Shown here piece by piece: positions 61,034 to 61,204 of a stretch of 64,000 bases of DNA (its first letter is position 1; the number at the start of each line of letters is the position of its first letter). The stretch is from Tardiphaga sp. vice304. GTDB lineage: Bacteria > Pseudomonadota > Alphaproteobacteria > Rhizobiales > Xanthobacteraceae. The stretch is taken from NCBI RefSeq assembly GCF_007018905.1, contig NZ_CP041402.1, positions 1,848,001 to 1,912,000 on the forward strand. Direction: 5' to 3'. Below the pieces are notes generated by a model that worked only from the letters and a program-made list of their open reading frames with translations, made no database searches and was not told where the DNA came from. The translations under genes and the position numbers were made by a program.

Positions 61034-61204
61034 CTGATCCCATCCTTGCGCAAGCGGGCTCGCAAAGCGGCCCAAGCGACTGTTCGGGTTCGATGGAACG
61101 GCAGGCGAAGACCCACGCTCCCCAACGGGCTTGGTGTCCCTCAGGTGATGCGGTCTTTCGCCTGCCACCGCTCCGCCAAGCTTAGCAGAAACGGCATTCG
61201 GCAA
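61034..61204 (-). ncRNA. Candidate IS110 bridge RNA region
   Basis: Non-coding segment between the transposase start and the inferred element end. It contains a strong hairpin: the arms at 61100-61113 (GGCAGGCGAAGACC) and 61152-61166 (GGTCTTTCGCCTGCC) pair over 14 bp with a single bulged base and enclose ~38 nt. In IS110-group elements the guiding bridge RNA is made from the non-coding end upstream of the transposase. The location, size and presence of stem plus internal loop fit; target- and donor-binding loops were not verified. Confidence 0.45.

Follow-up and report, generated by a model that had tools for sequence, protein, structure and literature searches.

The bridge RNA known from IS110-group insertion sequences is about 177 nt long, is expressed and is bound by the recombinase of the element. 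In IS621 it originates from a long left end and comprises a 5′ stem-loop, a target-binding loop and a donor-binding loop, the element using a CT core (PMC11208160, PMC11208158). Further landmarks of the IS621 RNA are a left donor guide ACAGU..C, a right donor guide ending in CAAG and an RNA end just before the ATG. As described by Durrant et al., IS621 inserts in palindromic repeats (REPs) and strongly prefers pairing with both strands of the core (PMC11208160). For ISEc21, likewise of IS110 type, the upstream non-coding region is described to give a seekRNA matching both target strands, and natural reprogramming of guides has been reported with the seekRNAs (PMC11187229). Before bridge RNAs were known, the rhizobial IS110 element ISRm19 had been reported to be inserted in palindromic repeats in four out of four copies (PMC1525189).

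The window, i.e. the whole stretch of 64,000 nucleotides from Tardiphaga sp. vice304 which was analysed, contains an element that appears to share the listed features of IS621, namely the architecture of the left end, the core, the landmarks of the donor guides, the position of the RNA end and the preference for palindromic repeats, the last of which it also has in common with ISRm19. With ISEc21 it shares an upstream RNA that would match both target strands. Guides and target, in contrast, differ from those of IS621. Inspection of an IS621 left end (copy L136) revealed the same landmarks, its letters fitting, by eye, the numbering given in PMC11208158. We consider it about 94% probable that the segment at 61034-61204 encodes the bridge RNA of an IS110-group insertion sequence. 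This assignment is drawn from sequence, namely from the structure and its covariation, the complementarity of the guides to target and donor, the element ends and the repeat target; transcription, circle formation and chemistry would follow by analogy with IS621.

All features of the element given below lie on the minus strand. Its transposase gene, correctly recognised as intact in the original prediction, is an unbroken open reading frame at 60095-61033 which encodes 312 amino acids. The protein matches the Pfam families DEDD_Tnp_IS110 and Transposase_20 (PF01548, PF02371) as well as the NCBIfam model NF033542 (“IS110 family RNA-guided transposase”), and among its relatives of solved structure are IS621 (8wt6, E 8.6e-39) and ISCro4 (9t56, E 4.1e-38). 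Its residues D9, E53, D95, D98 and Ser234 coincide in the alignment with the catalytic residues of IS621, of which D102 and S241 are described in PMC11208158. Judged by these matches, the protein seems to combine a DEDD RuvC domain with a Tnp domain carrying the catalytic serine, as is characteristic of the IS110 group. The closest named host among the relatives is Tardiphaga sp. P9-11, with 91% protein identity (L042).

The genome harbours four copies of the element with identical protein, and eight more IS110-type copies (L005-L012) of 38-40% identity. Alignment of the four copies reveals common ends which read CT-TGTAATTTGCC... on the left and ...AAAGACAGTCG-CT on the right, placing the left-end core at 61211-61212 and the right-end core at 60078-60079. 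The complete element accordingly extends from 60080 to 61212 (1,133 bp counting one core). The junctions at 61193-61204 and the insertion site near 60054 originally proposed proved to be wrong. The motif GGCATT(T/C)GGCAA found at 60055-60066 and 61193-61204 is a short direct repeat, the four copies ruling it out as element ends. Since two of the other copies (L001, L003) are identical to that of the window over all 1,133 bp and the third (L002) is one base off, this family must have moved recently. The left-end core is CT at 46 of 48 loci, the exceptions being AT in L058 and TT in L076, and the right-end core is CT at 43 of 44 (CC in L075). L058 and L076 both possess a CT core at the right end, which is expected if a non-CT target core stays at the left junction. 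L047 carries tandem duplications of its right-end junction and of part of its left end, reminiscent of a second insertion or recombination at the same junction.

Counting the core, 179 nt precede the transposase gene while 15 nt follow it, so that a long left end and a short right end are present. Together with the predicted RNA upstream of the gene this corresponds to the layout of the IS110 group, and the segment lies where bridge RNAs of this group are encoded, in the long left end ahead of the transposase gene. The subterminal inverted repeats (STIR) appear to be restricted to 2-3 bp, as is usual in this group. Their first position covaries among 28 distinct combinations (G/C in 16, C/G in nine, mismatched in three); in the window copy it is mismatched (G/T, likewise in L001 and L003), two of four STIR positions being paired. 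Elements of the IS1111 group carry their RNA in a long right end and possess a STIR of 7-17 bp. That the element belongs to this group and hence makes use of a seekRNA is suggested by the common transposase superfamily; however, its long non-coding end is located upstream, its right end amounts to 15 nt and, with two of four STIR positions paired, there is no STIR of 7-17 bp, for which reasons we rejected this assignment, whose probability is next to negligible.

The stem around which the original prediction was built is indeed present, with 61166-61152 pairing with 61113-61100 in 14 base pairs that include a perfect 10-bp core and are interrupted by one bulged A. The 38-nt loop enclosed by it exists as well, but it is not one open loop as it holds a GGG/CCC stem-loop (GGGACACCAAGCCC, 61127-61140) between two guides. 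Similarly, the interval proposed for the RNA does cover the RNA predicted here, yet only its target-binding half had been described, the donor-binding loop being located at about 61090-61040. The predicted bridge RNA comprises about 163 nt (61034-61196), both limits being set by analogy with IS621. It would start with a 5′ stem-loop region (61173-61195), recognised from its sequence, which is a perfect palindrome in the relative L061. In the target-binding loop, covariation delimits a 5′ stem strand at 61152-61169 and a 3′ stem strand at 61095-61114, each containing the respective arm of the 14-pair stem. The apical stem-loop of the target loop and that of the donor loop (61056-61073) constitute helices 2 and 4 of the covariation structure and hardly vary. 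The part from 61092 to 61171 folds at −39.9 kcal/mol compared to a shuffled mean of −29.5 kcal/mol (z −3.02; one of 200 shuffles as good), while the whole 171 nt are less striking by energy alone (z −1.91; nine of 200 shuffles as good).

Relatives were collected by a scan of genome collections, which yielded 43 loci, i.e. 39 relatives of 43-91% identity (L042-L080), most of them from named alphaproteobacteria, and four distant ones from Bacillota (L081-L084). Further relatives came from 397 genomes of the order, 12 of which, including the own genome, gave a match with an E-value of 1e-60 or below. From 55 loci tried, seven (L016, L044, L059, L073, L074, L077 and L094) gave no usable left end by pattern, leaving 48, with L068, L069 and five L085-type loci added by pattern and with L047 (outer copy of the duplicated left end) and L058 (start position) set by hand. 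The distinct left ends of these 48 loci, with L078, L068 and L069 left out, formed an alignment of 33 rows. L078 contains, at about 1822-2003, some 30 extra bases between the target and the donor half of the RNA.

Compensatory changes in the stem, by which the original prediction had suggested to check it, are found across these 33 related left ends. A structure of 24 pairs, not counting the 5′ stem-loop region, was obtained as the RNAalifold consensus of the same alignment upon addition of one pair and removal of four, and 98.0% of its 792 cells are paired. Changes on both sides occur at 13 of the 24 pairs (67 cells), a level reached by none of 500 shuffles. Pairing falls to 35.5-55.2% if the partner is slid by one to three columns, although in this comparison the structure, drawn from the same alignment, is favoured over its slid versions. 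Eleven of the 13 compensated pairs are located in the target-loop stem; the donor-loop pairs hardly vary and therefore say little by themselves. Long inverted repeats can also serve as protein sites, and the left end could accordingly be a dyad-symmetric DNA site bound by the transposase with no RNA involved. The kept pairs include G-U, however, each of the guides described below matches a single strand, and the transposase of the element is a homologue of that of IS621, the RNA-guided complex of which has been solved (PMC11208158), all of which renders such a DNA site extremely unlikely.

Within the target loop of the putative bridge RNA, the left target guide CAUCACC+UG (61142-61150) was identified from its match to left targets, while the right target guide UUGGGGAG (61118-61125) is the complement of CTCCCC and ends in AG, the complement of the core. 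Between the equivalent of G48 and the apical stem there are, by eye, ten bases as compared to eleven in IS621. Reading of the target-loop guides and the junction flanks at the 48 loci resulted in 31 distinct guide sets in 22 clusters, four of the sets being devoid of a right flank (L046, L049, L078, L080); L013 and L042 seem to be a single locus present in two collections. The matches were compared with those obtained when sites were shuffled among guide sets. Past the core, the right guide fits its own right target at 4.57 of five positions versus 2.15 upon permutation (27 sets; 0 of 20,000), and counted by cluster the values are 4.57 and 2.61 (20 of the 22 clusters; 0 of 20,000). In one fixed register the left guide reaches 4.28 of six versus 2.80 (31 sets; 0 of 20,000) and, by cluster, 3.90 versus 2.84 (22 clusters; 1 of 20,000). 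If the best of three registers is taken, it reaches 4.43 of five versus 3.14 (31 sets; 0 of 20,000) and, by cluster, 4.32 versus 3.18 (22 clusters; 0 of 20,000). These values argue for a target loop which pairs with both target strands. A clear misfit is L068, whose right guide fits its own site at one of five positions. ISMex17 from Methylorubrum, the only named element among the 10 of 50 plasmid records listed, is 66.9% identical in DNA over 95% of the query, and the Methylorubrum relatives L066 and L067 possess other target guides (UUAGCCU+CU).

The right guide ends in AGC in all 31 guide sets. While its AG pairs with the core, the C is complementary to the G at donor position 7, the described handshake position of IS621 (PMC11208158). 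T occupies the second core position of the left guide in 12 of the 31 sets (seven of 17 with a clear register), which differs from the preference of IS621 for pairing with both core strands. For the left guide of one and the same RNA the best register is 0 at L002 and L003, −1 at the window copy and +1 at L001. As matches as short as CACC may slide by chance, this three-register pattern is a lead rather than a result. It is conceivable, if doubtful, that target pairing in this clade is looser than in IS621. The left guide would then depend on no fixed register and not on the second core base, precision being provided mostly by the right guide with its invariant AGC, and a single RNA could in this way follow variable host palindromes.

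The site of the window copy reads GGGCAC-CT-CCACAC, which leaves the left guide one base out of register and causes one mismatch within the first seven positions of the right guide. A left target ending in GGGCAC is also found in three relatives (L043, L061, L087). This poorly matching site, as well as the mismatched first STIR position, which is shared with L001 and L003, could indicate that the RNA is a bridge RNA but that the window copy no longer moves. The identity of two further copies and the single difference in a third, which point to recent movement of the family, make this unlikely.

The left donor guide ACAGUCGC (61076-61083) of the predicted bridge RNA has the same letters as the right-end donor half ACAGTCG (60080-60086) followed by the first core base. 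The right donor guide UUGCGCAAG (61045-61053) is a discontinuous complement of the left-end donor half CT-TGTAA (61206-61212) and fits the scheme of IS621, which is described as A157-U158/G161/C162-G165 (PMC11208158). Compensated variants are present in L065 (donor CTTCTAA, guide ...GAAG) and L069 (donor CTTGTAT, guide AU..GCAAG), and L072 is a small exception, its right end being ACAGTCC versus the guide ACAGUCGC. The donor loop, matched here by reading as donors hardly vary, would thus pair with the joined element ends. The expectation that the loops would be complementary to element ends and insertion site is hence borne out by the guide-target and guide-donor matches and, together with the compensatory changes, supports the bridge RNA originally proposed.

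A candidate −35 box TTGACC (60093-60098) overlaps the stop codon of the transposase gene, and 40 of 42 loci, among them the own copies, have TTGAC in the same position. In the circle it would be separated by 17 bp from a candidate −10 box TAATTT (61203-61208), which is weak (three of six consensus letters) and, by eye, occupies the same place as TATTAT of IS621; both boxes would form a circle-junction promoter.

Nine bases before the ATG, the likely Shine-Dalgarno sequence of the transposase coincides in part with the right donor guide CAAGGA, whose AAGG is invariant in the 33 rows. Owing to this overlap, folding of the RNA may restrain translation of the transposase too. Comparable control by a 5′ untranslated region has reportedly been found for the transposase of ISPpu9. 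A structure which is mainly such a regulatory 5′ untranslated region of the transposase mRNA would, however, leave unexplained why the two sides of the first loop track the insertion site of each element and why the second loop tracks the element ends. We therefore regard it as very unlikely as the main function; the bridge RNA may have regulation of this kind as an additional function.

No match to a bridge RNA was obtained in Rfam at gathering or E-value thresholds; a match to Mcr7 of 18.4 bits, compared to a gathering score of 380, was taken as chance. A covariance model, R1, built from the 33 rows, was applied to 37 sources, of which 33 had been held out. With E up to 1 it matches 29 of these 33 loci (26 at E up to 0.01), several of the held-out loci being copies from the same genome, and gives no match up to E 1 at L021, L022, L074 and L090. 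In the window, itself a training row, it matches 61038-61169 with 146.5 bits. At the IS621 locus the match is weak though in the right place (18.8 bits, E 0.035), and at L078 there is a second match on the opposite strand (E 0.0015). In the own genome at least six places, each just upstream of an IS110 transposase, are found at E up to 0.1. Since 150 of 3,475 first-look candidates were scored in this run and six own copies (L007-L012) were missed by it, solo bridge RNAs may be present elsewhere in the genome. A locus-by-locus run gave an R1 match just upstream of each of L005-L012.

L001-L003 are inserted in GC-rich palindromes. The target 10-mer CACCCTCCCC occurs in 63 copies in the own genome versus three for the reversed control. 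Among 30 of the 63 places (L106-L135), a return arm GGG(G)AGGG is present at a distance of up to 60 bases in 23, the other seven folding into shorter or imperfect hairpins. The CACCCTCCCC family has the appearance of a dispersed short palindromic host repeat, e.g. TTCACCCTCCCCTGGAGGGGGAGGGT. The joined flanks of L001 read CACCTCTCCCC and contain an additional T compared to the common CACCCTCCCC and to the palindrome of L151. At the window copy, the left target and the core are contained in the 3′ arm of a host hairpin, GGGTGCCC...GGGCACCT (61211-61249, minus strand; −23.9 kcal/mol, z −3.32, none of 200 shuffles), which is not of the CACCCTCCCC kind.

An empty site of the window copy was found in none of 17 other genomes of the genus, its joined flanks matching the own genome only (18 searched). 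All 18 genus genomes searched contain pieces of the flanks of L001 and L003, and a number of them also the palindromic part of L003. The L001 site has related flanks and no element in G003 (L150), while in G015 (L151) it is a related unoccupied palindrome CACC-CTCCCC, compared to which the joined flanks of L001 have an extra T. The L003 site of G015 (L140) is free of both element and palindrome, from which we infer that repeats of the CACCCTCCCC type come and go. In G012 (L142) this site is of other sequence, and L141 and L143 align on the right flank only.

Counted against the assignment as a bridge RNA are the missing Rfam match, the weak −10 box, the poorly matching site of the window copy, for which no empty counterpart was found in the 17 other genomes, the misfit of L068, the loci missed by R1 and the opposite-strand match of this model at L078. 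If the element behaves like IS621, it would leave as a circle in which the right end is joined to the left end across the CT core, creating a promoter at the junction. Transcription from the left end would provide the RNA to which the recombinase binds. The first loop of this RNA would pair with both target strands (left target CACC plus core, right target CTCCCC), the second with the two strands of the junction ACAGTCG-CT-TGTAA in the circle, whereupon the Ser/DEDD recombinase would exchange strands at CT. The bridge RNA would in this way aim the element at an abundant short palindromic host repeat.

It is very likely that a mechanism already known from E. coli is aimed here at short palindromic repeats across the host chromosome. 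The natural rewriting of guides and the settlement in dispersed palindromes are already described in print (PMC11187229, PMC1525189, PMC11208160). What the present locus adds is an alphaproteobacterial clade of putative natural bridge RNAs with 31 guide sets, 27 of them with both flanks, which has recently been active in one genome. The clade hints at a negotiable core pairing and register of the left guide and would be useful for testing the rules of bridge-recombinase specificity.
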